56,472 nt of DNA from an uncultured Pseudorhodobacter sp. (GTDB taxonomy: Bacteria > Pseudomonadota > Alphaproteobacteria > Rhodobacterales > Rhodobacteraceae): contig CAJXWJ010000015.1 in the NCBI GenBank assembly GCA_913062925.1, positions 1-56,472 on the forward strand. Reading direction: 5' to 3'. Under the pieces are notes generated by a model. That model was not told where the DNA came from. It did not search any database and saw nothing but the letters and a program-made list of their open reading frames with translations. This document shows positions 22,159 to 26,389 of the stretch, in pieces; position 1 is the first letter of the stretch; each line of letters starts with the position of its first letter. The position numbers and the translations under genes are program-made.

Positions 22159-23421
22159 ATGCGTCGTGTTGTCATAACGGGTCTGGGCATGGTCACACCC
22201 CTTGCCTGCGGTGTGGAAGAAACTTGGAGCCGTCTTTTGGCGGGCCAGTCTGGTGCCGGGCCAATTACCCGCTTTGATGCCAGCAATGTGGTGACGCAAT
22301 ATGCCTGCGAAATTCCCTTTGGCGATGGCACAGATGGCAGCTTTAACCCCAACGATTGGATGGAGCCGAAGGACCGTCGTAAGGTCGATGATTTCATCCT
22401 TTACGGCATGGCGGCGGCTGTGCAAGCGGTGCGCGATTCTGGTTGGGAGCCGCAAACCGAAGAAGATCGTTGCCGCACTGGCGTGATGATCGGCTCGGGC
22501 ATTGGCGGGCTGACCTCGATTGCCGAGACGGCGGTTTTGATCAAGGAAAAGGGTCCAAAGCGGGTTTCGCCGTTCTTTATTCCGGGATCGCTGATCAATT
22601 TGATTTCGGGGCAGGTCTCGATCCGCTTTGGCTTCAAGGGGCCGAACCATGCGGTGGTGACGGCCTGTTCAACGGGCGCGCATGCGATTGGCGATGCGGC
22701 GCGGCTGATCCAATGGGGCGATGCCGATGTGATGCTGGCAGGCGGGGCGGAAGCGCCGATCTCGGAAATTGGCATCGCGGGCTTTAACGCCTGCAAGGCG
22801 CTGTCGACCAAGCGCGGCGATGATCCGACCAAAGCCAGCCGCCCCTATGACGCCGATCGCGATGGCTTTGTGATGGGCGAAGGTGCAGGCGTGGTGGTGC
22901 TGGAGGAATACGAGCATGCCATGGCACGCGGTGCCAAGATCTATGCCGAGGTTCTGGGCTATGGGTTGTCGGGGGATGCCTATCACATCACTGCGCCGGC
23001 CGAAGATGGCGATGGCGGGTTCCGTTCGATGCAGATGGCGTTGAAACGCGCTGGGCTTGAGCCTGCCGATATTGACTACATCAACGCGCATGGCACCTCG
23101 ACCATGGCAGATACCATCGAGCTGGGCGCTGTCGAGCGGTTGATGGGGGATGCGGCGGCGCAGGCGACGATGTCTTCGACCAAGTCGAGCATCGGGCATT
23201 TGCTGGGGGCTGCGGGCGCGGTGGAGGCGATTTTCTGCGTGCTGGCGCTGCGCGATCAGGTGGCACCGCCAACGATCAACCTTGATAATCCGGCGATTGC
23301 CCCCAAGTTGGATCTGGCACCAAATGCGGCGCGCAAGCGCAAGATTGATGTGGCGCTGTCGAATTCTTTTGGCTTTGGCGGCACCAATGCCAGCCTTGTT
23401 TTGGGGAAGGTTAAGGCCTGA
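22159..23421 (+). CDS. fabF: 3-oxoacyl-ACP synthase II
   Basis: Condensing enzyme that elongates fatty acyl chains with malonyl-ACP. It has 420 residues, full length. The catalytic triad is Cys170 (VVTACSTGAHAIGD), His311 (NAHGTST) and His347 (SSIGHLLGAAG). ATG 22159 is chosen over the open codons before it. Its stop overlaps the mltG start by one base (TGATG), so the two are coupled. In most Rhodobacterales it follows acpP directly; here about 5.4 kb of efflux genes separate them. Confidence 0.97.
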   Translation: MRRVVITGLGMVTPLACGVEETWSRLLAGQSGAGPITRFDASNVVTQYACEIPFGDGTDGSFNPNDWMEPKDRRKVDDFILYGMAAAVQAVRDSGWEPQTEEDRCRTGVMIGSGIGGLTSIAETAVLIKEKGPKRVSPFFIPGSLINLISGQVSIRFGFKGPNHAVVTACSTGAHAIGDAARLIQWGDADVMLAGGAEAPISEIGIAGFNACKALSTKRGDDPTKASRPYDADRDGFVMGEGAGVVVLEEYEHAMARGAKIYAEVLGYGLSGDAYHITAPAEDGDGGFRSMQMALKRAGLEPADIDYINAHGTSTMADTIELGAVERLMGDAAAQATMSSTKSSIGHLLGAAGAVEAIFCVLALRDQVAPPTINLDNPAIAPKLDLAPNAARKRKIDVALSNSFGFGGTNASLVLGKVKA

Positions 23422-24581
23422 TGTGGAAGTCTGTTGCCTCTAATGCGTTGACTTTGTTTATTGTGATCCTTGTGGTTGCCTTTGGGGTCATCGCTTGGGG
23501 GCGGCAGCAGTTTGTTGGCGCGGGGCCATTGGCCGCGCCGATTTGTTTCAAGGTGGAACGCGGCGCGTCCCTGTCGCAGGTGGGGCGCACGCTGGAAGAG
23601 CAGGGTGCGGTCAGCGATGCGCGGATTTTCCGCATTGGCGCGGATTATTCGGGTCGGTCCAAGGATTTGAAATTTGGCAGCTATCTGATCGCGCCCAATG
23701 CCTCGATGGAAGCGGTGCTGGACGATCTGACGGCGGGCGGGCAATCGACCTGTGGGCGCGAGGTGAATTTCCGCATATCTGTGGCGAAAAGTCAGGTGAT
23801 CTTGCGCGAGCTTGATCCTGTCAGCAATCGCTATGTCGAAGTGGCAAGCTTTGATCCGGCCGCCGAGGCCGCGCCAAGTGCCTATCTGGATGCAGCGCAG
23901 GCAGGGGATCTGCGGTTGCGGATCACTTTGGCCGAAGGGGTTACATCGTGGCAGGTGGTGGATGCGCTGAAGCGGGCGGATTTTCTGTCGGGCAGCATCG
24001 AGGCGGTGCCCGCCGAGGGCATCTTGTCGCCTGACAGTTATGAGGTGGAAAAAGGGGCTGATCGTGCGGCGCTGATTGCCGAGATGGAAGCGCGGCAGGC
24101 GGCGACTTTGGCCGAGCTTTGGGCGCAGCGCGCGGCCGGGCTGCCCTATAAGACGCCGGAAGAGGCTTTGGTGATGGCCTCGATCGTCGAGAAAGAAACC
24201 GGTGTGGCGGCCGAGCGCAAGCTGGTGGCGGGGGTGTTTTTGAACCGCATTGCCAAGGGCATGCGGCTGCAAACCGACCCTACGGTGATTTATGGTGTGA
24301 CCAAAGGCAAAGGCCTGTTGGGGCGGGGGTTGCGCCAAAGCGAGCTTAAGGCTGCAACGCCTTGGAACACCTATGTTATTTTAGGTTTGCCGCCGACGCC
24401 TATTGCCAATCCGGGGCGGTTGAGCATCGAGGCGGCCTTGCAGCCAGAGCCGAGCGATTATCTGTTCTTTGTGGCCGACGGATCGGGGGGCCATGCCTTT
24501 GCCACAACCTTGGCCGAGCATAACGCCAATGTGGTGAAATGGCGCGCGATTGAGGCAGCCAAGCCTGCGGTGGCGCCTTAA
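23421..24581 (+). CDS. mltG: endolytic murein transglycosylase
   Basis: Inner-membrane enzyme that cuts nascent glycan strands and so sets their length. It has 386 residues: a short cytoplasmic start, one N-terminal membrane segment at about 9-26 (ALTLFIVILVVAFGVIAW), a LysM-like region and the YceG domain. The catalytic glutamate is in ASIVEKETG. The conserved ends GRGLRQSELK and NTYVILGLPPTPIANPG are present. The start overlaps the fabF stop. It lies just before the GTA leader, the conserved neighbour in this order. Confidence 0.95.
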   Translation: MWKSVASNALTLFIVILVVAFGVIAWGRQQFVGAGPLAAPICFKVERGASLSQVGRTLEEQGAVSDARIFRIGADYSGRSKDLKFGSYLIAPNASMEAVLDDLTAGGQSTCGREVNFRISVAKSQVILRELDPVSNRYVEVASFDPAAEAAPSAYLDAAQAGDLRLRITLAEGVTSWQVVDALKRADFLSGSIEAVPAEGILSPDSYEVEKGADRAALIAEMEARQAATLAELWAQRAAGLPYKTPEEALVMASIVEKETGVAAERKLVAGVFLNRIAKGMRLQTDPTVIYGVTKGKGLLGRGLRQSELKAATPWNTYVILGLPPTPIANPGRLSIEAALQPEPSDYLFFVADGSGGHAFATTLAEHNANVVKWRAIEAAKPAVAP

Positions 24582-24604
24582 GGGGTTAATGAAACCCTAA
24601 CTCT

Positions 24605-24655
24605 GCGCGCGCAAGTCACTGATATAAAACGGTTTTATCTTGACTTTGCGCGCGC
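24605..24655. promoter_or_regulatory. concentric inverted repeats in the GTA promoter region
   Basis: The outer repeat is GCGCGCGCAAGTCA (24605-24618) with TGACTTTGCGCGCGC (24641-24655), differing by one inserted base. The inner repeat is ATAAAAC (24624-24630) with GTTTTAT (24632-24638). Both share the centre near 24630. The right outer arm overlaps the TTGACT -35 candidate at 24640-24645. It is 117 bases before g1 and looks like an operator for the GTA activator. Confidence 0.5.
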
Positions 24656-24668
24656 TCTGATGTAGCAA
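24640..24668 (+). promoter_or_regulatory. candidate GTA promoter
   Basis: TTGACT (24640-24645), 17-base spacer, TAGCAA (24663-24668). The -35 is a near match; the -10 is weak, as expected for a promoter that needs an activator. It lies downstream of mltG and upstream of the terminator-like hairpin. Confidence 0.4.
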
Positions 24669-24692
24669 TTTCCTATGCTAGAAGAGATGGGC

Positions 24693-24726
24693 AAACGGCT
24701 TGGGGGCAACCCTTGGGCCGTTTTTT
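24693..24726 (+). terminator. terminator or attenuator in the GTA leader
   Basis: AAACGGC (24693-24699) pairs with GCCGTTT (24717-24723), with an inner GGG/CCC, followed by six T's (24721-24726). It lies after the promoter candidate and 45 bases before g1. It may end mltG transcripts and at the same time limit read-through into the GTA genes. Confidence 0.7.
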
Positions 24727-24771
24727 CATGTCTATCGTGCGGGGCGGCATGAAAGGTGGGTCAGACACCAT

Positions 24772-25095
24772 ATGAGCATAAATTTCTCGGCGGACGACGA
24801 ACCTGGGGTCGATATGTTGGCGCAGGTCGAACAGCTGATGCGCGTGGCGGCTGAAGAGCTGGTCACAGCGGTCAATTCGGTGAAACGCGGCAAACTCGAG
24901 GATGCAAAGGCAGCGATGACTGCCGTGCGCGACCTGCGGGCCGCTTATTTTGTTGTGATGGATGAAAGAGGTAAAGTTGAAAAACTCCGCAAGCAAGTTG
25001 CAGGGGCTGTCGGAACCGGCACGCTCGACCTATCAGCCGCGCGCGATGAGATCGGGCGCAGATTGGCTCGCCTCCGCGACGCCGCAACAGGTTGA
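24772..25095 (+). CDS. GTA g1, small terminase-like protein
   Basis: First gene of the GTA structural cluster, 107 residues, matching the position and kind of RcGTA g1, which is reported as the small terminase that selects packaging substrate. Seen: an acidic N terminus (MSINFSADDEPGVDML), then predicted long helices with a coiled-coil-like VEQLMRVAAEELVTAVNSV, LRAAYFVVMDERGKVEKLRKQ, and a C-terminal helix RDEIGRRLARLRDA. ATG 24772 follows a terminator-like hairpin. It overlaps g2 by at least 50 bases. Confidence 0.85.
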   Translation: MSINFSADDEPGVDMLAQVEQLMRVAAEELVTAVNSVKRGKLEDAKAAMTAVRDLRAAYFVVMDERGKVEKLRKQVAGAVGTGTLDLSAARDEIGRRLARLRDAATG

Positions 25096-26389
25096 GGATT
25101 TTATCGCAGGCCTAAGTGAAAACGCGCTTTTGGCGCTGCCTTGGATGTTCGAATTCTGGGCGCTGGCGCATCAGCTGCCGCCCGAAGGGGTGTGGAAGAC
25201 CTGGGTGATCATGGGCGGGCGCGGTGCTGGCAAAACGCGGGCGGGCGCGGAATGGGTGCGCGCGCAGGTCGAAGGCGCGGGGCCGCAGGATCCGGGCCGC
25301 GCGCGGCGGGTGGCGCTGTTGGGCGAGACGGTGGATCAGGTGCGCGAGGTGATGATCTTTGGCGACAGTGGCATCCTTGCCTGCTCGCCCCCCGACAGGC
25401 GGCCCGAATGGCAGGCCACGCGCAAGCAATTGCTTTGGCCCAATGGCGCGGTGGCGCAGGTCTATTCTGCGCATGATCCCGACAGTTTGCGCGGGCCGCA
25501 GTTTGATGCGGCTTGGGTCGATGAATTGGCGAAATGGAAGCGCGGGCAGAAGGCTTGGGATCAGCTGCAATTCGCGCTGCGCTTGGGCAAGAACCCGCAG
25601 CAGGTGGTGACAACGACGCCGCAGAATGTGGCGGTGCTGAAGCAGATCTTGAAGAACCCCTCGAGCGTGATGACCCATGCCCCCACCGATGCCAATCGCG
25701 CGCATCTGGCGGCCTCGTTCTTGGAAGAGGTGCGCAGCCGATACGCGGGGACCTTGCTGGGCGCACAAGAGTTGCAGGGGCTGTTGGTCGAGGATGTGCA
25801 GGGCGCGCTGTGGTCAACCGCCACGCTGGAGGCGCAGCGCATCGCACAAGCGCCGCGCTGTCAGCGCATTGTGGTGGCAGTGGATCCGCCTGTCACCGGG
25901 CATGGTGGATCGGACGCCTGCGGCATTGTGGTGGTGGGGGCGATCACTGAAGGCGCGCCACAAAGCTGGCGGGCGGTGGTGCTGGAAGATGCGTCGGTCA
26001 CGGGGGCCAGCCCCGAGCAATGGGCGCGTGCGGCCATCGCTGCGATGGAGCGGCATAAGGCAGACCGGCTGGTGGCAGAGGTCAATCAGGGCGGTGATCT
26101 GGTGGAAGGGGTGATCCGCCAGATTGACCCCTTGGTGCCTTACCGCGCTGTGCGGGCCAGCCGTGGCAAGGGCGTGCGGGCCGAACCGGTCTCGGCGCTT
26201 TATGAACAGGGGCGGGTGGCGCATCTGCGCGGGATGCCAGAGCTGGAGCTACAGATGTGTCAGATGACGGCGCAGGGCTATCTGGGCAAAGGCTCGCCCG
26301 ACCGCGTGGACGCTTTGGTTTGGGCGCTGACTGATCTGATCGTCGAGCCTTCCGAGAAATACCGCAACCCTCAGATGCGTAGCCTGTAG
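25046..26389 (+). CDS. GTA g2, large terminase subunit
   Basis: ATP-driven DNA packaging motor and nuclease. The Walker A motif GGRGAGKT lies soon after the start (IMGGRGAGKTRAGAEW) and the Walker B-like FDAAWVDELAKW follows. The C-terminal nuclease half has VVAVDPPVTG and EVNQGGDLVEG, with RVDALVWALTDL at the end. Start choice is uncertain: ATG 25046 overlaps g1 by 50 bases and gives 447 residues. TTG 24977 has a better GAGG site but overlaps by 119; ATG 24962 overlaps by 134. GTA terminases package random host DNA by headful. Confidence 0.93.
   Translation: MRSGADWLASATPQQVEDFIAGLSENALLALPWMFEFWALAHQLPPEGVWKTWVIMGGRGAGKTRAGAEWVRAQVEGAGPQDPGRARRVALLGETVDQVREVMIFGDSGILACSPPDRRPEWQATRKQLLWPNGAVAQVYSAHDPDSLRGPQFDAAWVDELAKWKRGQKAWDQLQFALRLGKNPQQVVTTTPQNVAVLKQILKNPSSVMTHAPTDANRAHLAASFLEEVRSRYAGTLLGAQELQGLLVEDVQGALWSTATLEAQRIAQAPRCQRIVVAVDPPVTGHGGSDACGIVVVGAITEGAPQSWRAVVLEDASVTGASPEQWARAAIAAMERHKADRLVAEVNQGGDLVEGVIRQIDPLVPYRAVRASRGKGVRAEPVSALYEQGRVAHLRGMPELELQMCQMTAQGYLGKGSPDRVDALVWALTDLIVEPSEKYRNPQMRSL

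Follow-up and report, generated by a model that had tools for sequence, protein, structure and literature searches.

Late promoters of phage lambda that depend on Q carry an operator between the -35 and -10 elements, a -10-like element just after the transcription start and a terminator ahead of the late genes, which in lambda lies much farther from the start than the leader hairpin described here. Antitermination in the GTA of Bartonella is reportedly also the subject of a paper. In Caulobacter crescentus the GTA cluster is transcribed from PgtaT under GafY, GafZ and IHF, the activator being a homologue of GafA split in two; GafZ acts there as an antiterminator, with a reported site in the -35/-10 spacer and IHF farther upstream, and mutation of the palindrome at that place brought GafZ enrichment down to background (PMC11150451). 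No similarity of GafZ to known antiterminators was reported (PMC11150451), and the C-terminal portion of GafA corresponds to Caulobacter GafZ (PMC9632790). GafA itself is a dimer (PMC9638019). In R. capsulatus it bound one of five promoter probes, lying 76-125 bp upstream of g1 in the -10/-35/start region (PMC6363796), and its C-terminal part bound there as well as to a fragment with the -35 of the gafA promoter (PMC9638019); in one of these two papers its action is explained by contact with the omega subunit. For this best-studied GTA, contacts of GafA with the promoter and with the omega subunit have thus both been reported. The word terminator does not occur in the two R. capsulatus GafA papers (PMC6363796, PMC9638019), and neither a leader terminator nor an IHF site is described for Rhodobacterales GTA promoters in the accessible portions of the literature covered (PMC6363796, PMC9638019, PMC11150451, PMC13236601, PMC6473078, PMC3692519, PMC11841831, PMC13420450, PMC9632790).

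Here we analyse the region upstream of g1 in an uncultured Pseudorhodobacter sp., within a stretch of 56,472 nucleotides (assembly GCA_913062925.1, contig CAJXWJ010000015.1) that we call the window. The first-pass annotation of this DNA had placed a GTA promoter region here, formed by two nested inverted repeats, and a conserved promoter does lie directly upstream of g1. From sequence and analogy, we consider it probable that the region is a composite GafA-dependent GTA promoter working in the manner of the antitermination promoters of lambda Q and Caulobacter GafYZ (Table 1). The arrangement may serve to keep cell-killing GTA genes off until the activator allows read-through.

Table 1. Features of the promoter region and its neighbourhood, in window coordinates.
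Feature	Position	Strand	Remarks
Upstream gene	23421..24581	+	presumably MltG-like; ends 23 bp before the left arm
CtrA-like full site, TTAATGAAACCCTAA	24586..24600	+	TTAA-N7-TTAA, one mismatch
Left outer arm	24605..24618	+	CGnnCG core at 24606-24611; runs into the IHF-like site
IHF-like core, CAAGTCACTGATA	24612..24624	-	one mismatch to consensus YAANNNNTTGATW; overlaps the left arm
Inner repeat, ATAAAAC/GTTTTAT	24624..24638	strandless	A/T-rich tract adjoining the IHF-like core; repeat itself not conserved
-35, TTGACT	24640..24645	+	TTGAC in 79/79 rows, partly circular as the anchor contains TTGAC
CGnnCG spacer core	24649..24654	strandless	proposed contact of the GafA C-terminal domain; conserved columns 92, 92, 92, 88%
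-10, TAGCAA	24663..24668	+	TA conserved (T 88%, A 94%); spacing 17 bp
TATGCT, -10-like element	24674..24679	+	candidate pause element at predicted +1 to +6 (start site predicted)
Candidate intrinsic terminator	24688..24728	+	GC-rich hairpin, stem 24693-24723 by the scanner, then a T run; ahead of g1
GTA g1 (small terminase position)	24772..25095	+	ATG by inspection; start in the ORF list is 24700 TTG
GTA large terminase	24962..26389	+	query for relatives

Three sets of loci were compared. The best 80 among the terminase matches listed gave 78 usable relatives, which together with the window make 79 rows; L033 was dropped for its poor anchor and L067 since its contig begins inside, L089 and L097 were anchored by hand, and L099 has no upstream sequence, so that upstream tests cover 78 of the 79 rows. 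All 220 phage terminases among the search records had less than 60% identity. A held-out set was drawn from the 29 family loci that scored best among 135 other genomes matching a covariance model of the element, which spans the -35 to the leader; five with a core already in the first set were dropped, leaving 24 loci from new genera. The third set consists of 20 gafA promoters, from the window's own genome and 19 other genera, a further one (L148) having been dropped for want of a clear position of its CtrA-like site.

The order and spacing of the parts are conserved, and the element is a single-copy feature of the genomes that carry it. The own genome has one full-strength match to the covariance model, that of the window (97.4 bits). 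Further copies were sought there and rejected: the next matches are weak (22.2 and 21.7 bits), both lie inside open reading frames, and the latter covers the hairpin half of the model only. Within the family, 136 of 198 genomes match at E <= 0.01, each exactly once, though some of these coincide with, or stand close to, rows used in building the model. A terminase follows in 28 of the 29 best-scoring other loci, the element starting 319-646 bp before the terL match; L121 is the one with no match on its examined stretch. In the class sample of 289 genomes four match: that of the window, a further member of the family, one from another family and a weak match, on whose examined flanking stretch there was no terminase. 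The locus of the other family (L163, genome G250; E 4.4e-6) has TTGACA followed by a strong terminator-like hairpin, has no CGnnCG in the spacer and is followed by a GTA-type terminase with 45% identity over residues 47-326. On this sequence evidence, a composite promoter-terminator arrangement is conserved before the GTA genes across much of the family.

The element also goes together with gafA. A search for DUF6456 found a single match in the own genome, on another contig, which is its gafA, and the domain occurs in 178 of the 198 family genomes. Element and gafA are both found in 133 of these, gafA only in 45, neither in 17, and the element only in three (G114, G160, G196), an association with p = 2.5e-7, a value that ignores kinship and is therefore too low. 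With the element directly upstream of g1 and terL in a gafA-bearing genome, the locus fits a GafA-dependent GTA promoter of the Rhodobacterales by position.

Within the core promoter the right outer arm (24641-24655), which the first-pass annotation had correctly described as overlapping the TTGACT -35, comprises, to judge from its letters, that -35 and, within the spacer, an operator-like core. An exact CGnnCG occupies this position in 67 of the 79 rows and 18 of the 24 held-out rows; it is not exact in the other 12 and 6, and L033, which stands outside these counts and has TTGACT, is likewise without it. The presumed -10 of the window is poor. Among the gafA promoters CGnnCG occurs somewhere in 20/20 (10.8 in shuffled sequence), and in 20/20 a copy starts 58-64 bp before the CtrA-like site, compared with 1.1 after shuffling, a place that was chosen once the alignment had been viewed; a longer spacer motif gave no signal in these promoters (14/21, shuffled 11.85). 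We propose the core as the contact of GafA, and it may already be known, as putative GafA sites are said to be given in Figure S7 of PMC9638019. Being common to GTA and gafA promoters, CGnnCG offers a definite DNA target for mutation. The guess in the first-pass annotation that the repeats are a site for GafA is thus a sound one for the right arm, where a conserved -35 and CGnnCG coincide with the -10/-35/start region at which R. capsulatus GafA is reported to bind (PMC6363796, PMC9638019), and an improbable one for the two repeats as a paired operator. When the bound R. capsulatus probe is projected from g1 of the window with the window's spacing, it covers 24647-24696 and excludes the left arm, which argues against a GafA site at the left arm if the spacing is as in the window.

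Downstream of the core promoter lie two parts that the first-pass annotation did not include, a -10-like element at the predicted start and a candidate leader terminator. The former reads YANGCT in the MAFFT alignment of 79 rows, with A, G and T at positions 2, 4 and 6 in 77/79, 79/79 and 79/79 rows, and CANGCT in 24/24 held-out loci. A at position 2 and T at position 6 are the key letters of a -10 element. G at +4 and the adjoining GAAGA are as invariant as these two, so the start block may be conserved for another reason.

A terminator-like hairpin with a T run precedes g1 in 78 of 79 loci (the exception is L048), starting at +12 to +23, compared with 41 of 237 shuffled leaders and 6 of 79 stretches of terS coding sequence. 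With a threshold of -15 kcal/mol the hairpin is found in 77/79 loci, against 9/237 shuffled leaders and 1/79 terS sequences. Its pairs show compensatory changes: 62 cells changed on both sides as opposed to 17.5 after shuffling, with lower values for slid structures, and the 24 held-out loci gave 25 versus 5.9 in an alignment that was fitted to the model and so favours it. An Rfam search of window positions 24400-25000 returned one chance match (15.2 bits, gathering score 38), which lies on the opposite strand and does not touch the element. Present between promoter and first gene in nearly all loci, the hairpin lends itself to a direct and cheap test of antitermination, which would link R. 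capsulatus with the GafZ mechanism of Caulobacter.

Two further observations concern the leader. The stem (24688-24728 in the window) extends beyond the T run, where alignment A1 (columns 49-53 with 103-108) has two-sided changes in four of the five outer pairs in the first set; in the held-out set the outer stem is 97.5% paired, with a two-sided change in one of the five. The RNA made on read-through may itself be functional. A second conserved block, CTCGTGCGG...GCATGAGAGGCGGG, lies between the terminator and g1 (about 24732-24756; alignment A2) and could form a small hairpin before the start of g1.

Upstream of the -35 two kinds of site recur. With at most one mismatch allowed, 51 of 78 loci have TTAA-N7-TTAA (3.62 shuffled), and 20 have it exactly (0.28); spacings of N5, N6 and N8 occur in no locus and N9 in one, and the held-out set gave 16/24 (1.56) and, for exact matches, 10/24 (0.09). 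Measured against the full CtrA site TTAA-N7-TTAAC, for which the consensus comes from PMC3692519, the window has one mismatch and its relatives are enriched at N7. In R. capsulatus, CtrA showed no binding to the GTA promoter in vitro (PMC6363796), which argues against a direct role of CtrA. The IHF-like core, allowing one mismatch, occurs in 45 of 78 loci (2.56 shuffled) and exactly in 10 (0.16), and 43 of the 45 start 25-29 bp before the -35; among held-out loci the figures are 12/24 (0.81) and 1/24, 10 of the 12 standing at -25 or -29. About half of the loci thus have no match. The window differs by one mismatch from WATCAANNNNTTR, a presumed consensus word that matches papers on IHF. In the window the core adjoins the A/T-rich tract of the inner repeat. 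An A/T tract at one side is a feature of IHF sites.

That the left block is a site for CtrA or another protein and not for IHF, DNA bending having no part in the promoter, seems to us somewhat unlikely. It is favoured by TAA-rich words of the IHF-like core that overlap CtrA-like words in several held-out loci; the TTGATA part of the core and its fixed place in 45/78 loci nevertheless fit the IHF consensus, and IHF acts at the Caulobacter promoter (PMC11150451). In six such loci (L117, L120, L123, L124, L129, L131) a TTAA-N7-TTAA-like match stands at -26, near the -35 and over the IHF-like core, and there the two assignments are inseparable.

The antitermination promoter that we favour would work as follows. 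Upstream sites, namely TTAA-N7-TTAA, the IHF-like bend site and often a second CGnnCG, would assist in bringing in RNA polymerase and GafA, whose C-terminal domain would sit on CGnnCG between -35 and -10, and the -10-like element at +1 to +6 would hold the polymerase near the start while GafA joins. The modified polymerase would then pass the terminator and go on into g1, and an initiating polymerase without GafA would make a leader RNA of about 50 nt and stop. The pause at +1 to +6, termination at the hairpin and antitermination by GafA at this promoter are steps that we propose from the sequence. Antitermination would add to the published omega-contact model.

Set against a Q-type promoter, the locus offers a candidate for each part: the terminator between promoter and genes is matched by sequence and covariation, the conserved CGnnCG stands at the operator position as a putative operator, and the conserved -10-like sequence just after the predicted start is a candidate pause element. 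On paper the lambda promoter works alike, a comparison also drawn for Caulobacter (PMC11150451). With Caulobacter PgtaT, as far as that source describes it, the locus has in common its place at the promoter of a GTA cluster, an operator between -35 and -10 (putative here), an upstream IHF site (IHF-like here) and an early terminator (by sequence here). The two differ in that the Caulobacter terminator comes after the first gene, whereas the hairpin here precedes g1; in the -35, a degenerate AATCAT in PgtaT but TTGAC here; in the spacer, with the ZBE palindrome GCGCCCG-CTGGCGC there and CGnnCG here; and in the CtrA-like site upstream, which is found here, unlike in PgtaT. The RcGTA promoter of R. 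capsulatus, compared by description, resembles the locus of the window in gene position, in the presence of gafA in the genome and in a bound fragment that covers -10, -35 and start; a terminator, a pause element, an IHF site and a core motif all go unmentioned in the accessible parts of the two papers (PMC6363796, PMC9638019). The differences from Caulobacter in site sequence, -35 and terminator position speak against antitermination, as do the 45 gafA-bearing genomes without a detectable element, the rows in which the spacer has no exact CGnnCG, the poor -10 of the window and the silence of the two R. capsulatus GafA papers on a terminator.

Alternatively, GafA may control initiation only, recruiting RNA polymerase through omega contact to a weak promoter, and the hairpin may merely block read-through from the upstream gene or shape the 5' end of the mRNA. 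This accords with the published omega model and the poor -10 of the window; the hairpin would stop polymerases arriving from upstream as well, and the two-sided pairing changes past the T run in the first set suit an mRNA stem. Yet a terminator that lies a constant, short way past the start acts on this promoter as well, one would look for an insulator upstream of the promoter, and the aligned loci have a near-consensus TTGAC; we regard this explanation as unlikely. For antitermination one can go further and suggest, as no more than a tentative possibility, that the GTA switch in Rhodobacteraceae is set after initiation: the promoter would fire in most cells, its transcript would be cut at the leader terminator as a ~50-nt RNA, and GafA would load at CGnnCG, aided by the start-proximal pause, and act as a processive antiterminator. 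If true, a single terminator would be where a lethal gene-transfer programme is switched on or off.

The repeats themselves are there as the first-pass annotation had described them, letters and coordinates included: an outer repeat with arms of 14/15 bases at 24605-24618 (GCGCGCGCAAGTCA) and 24641-24655 (TGACTTTGCGCGCGC), within which 24605-24614/24646-24655 pair perfectly (10/10), and a perfect inner repeat (7/7, 24624-24630/24632-24638). Either repeat alone is ordinary in the window and only their common centre is unusual. Perfect 10-mer repeats with gaps of 20-45 bp number 6, compared with 4.65 (sd 2.08) in 20 dinucleotide shuffles, and perfect 7-mer repeats with gaps of 0-4 bp number 29, compared with 32.9 (sd 6.45); 10-mer repeats are in excess when gaps of 0-60 bp are counted (26 versus 9.0 shuffled). 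One concentric pair is present in the window and none in the 20 shuffles, in a count made post hoc. Near matches to TTGACTTTGCGCGCG (<=2 mismatches) were found at 48 places in the own genome, against 13 for the reversed control.

Two functional levels of symmetry at one centre, as had been suggested, are not borne out by the relatives. A coevolving outer palindrome was rejected, as arms from the same locus pair no better than arms from different loci: the summed score over 78 loci is 686 for own pairs and 684.8 (sd 7.4) for permuted ones, with 921 of 2000 permutations reaching the own score, and the 24 held-out genera average 8.29 when arms are paired within a locus and 8.32 when they are paired across loci. 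The window's own match (14/15) is the best of the 78. Scores are somewhat higher than against shuffled upstream sequence over the 78 loci, which fits a core common to both arms and not pairing between them. The inner repeat was rejected as a conserved operator too: it is present in 2/78 loci, those of the window and L054, and shuffled sequence has it at a rate of 1.15% per locus. With neither arm complementarity nor inner repeat conserved, the nested symmetry appears peculiar, and incidental, to the window genome. Alignment of the upstream regions of relatives thus finds both arms conserved, the left one for reasons other than symmetry, namely the IHF-like core and a second CGnnCG.

This second copy, starting 20-45 bp before the -35, occurs in 57 of 102 loci (16.3 shuffled), and where both copies are present (50 loci) they are spaced by 44-46 bp in 30 and by 33 bp in 8; the window has 43 bp. 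It is on this copy and its spacing, and on no other sequence feature, that a paired operator can be based, that is, one in which the outer arms form a single inverted-repeat operator for a GafA dimer and the inner repeat a second. CGnnCG in both arms, two preferred spacings about a helical turn apart and the dimeric state of GafA (PMC9638019) would suit it; complementarity that does not follow the locus, an inner repeat in so few loci, a left CGnnCG absent from 45/102 loci and binding of R. capsulatus GafA to one probe of five (PMC6363796) do not, and it strikes us as distinctly improbable. Barely credible is a last explanation, by which the conserved start block would open a leader peptide from an ATG at +2 and attenuation would follow: ATG is found in 62/79 loci but is lacking in 17/79, which mostly have AAG, and the open frames are 10 to 97 codons long and end differently.

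Minor observations were made on other genes of the system. A gene for a GH108 muramidase in the own genome (L161, 415-1026, minus strand) is a candidate GTA endolysin; it is the sole GH108 gene found, it lies behind a gene that we take to be ccmE-like, and inspection by eye revealed no clear site in its promoter. In 18 of the 20 gafA promoters the word GTTGCG begins 80-85 bp upstream of the CtrA-like site (0.08 shuffled). The word GTGTTGCG is exact in 13 of 20 gafA promoters (0.15 shuffled; search set L140-L159 and L103) and upstream of 15 of 102 GTA promoters (0.28 shuffled; L035, L037, L039, L040, L042, L048, L052, L065, L070, L081, L085, L088, L091, L096 and L111), so that gafA and GTA promoters have, at the level of sequence, a site in common.
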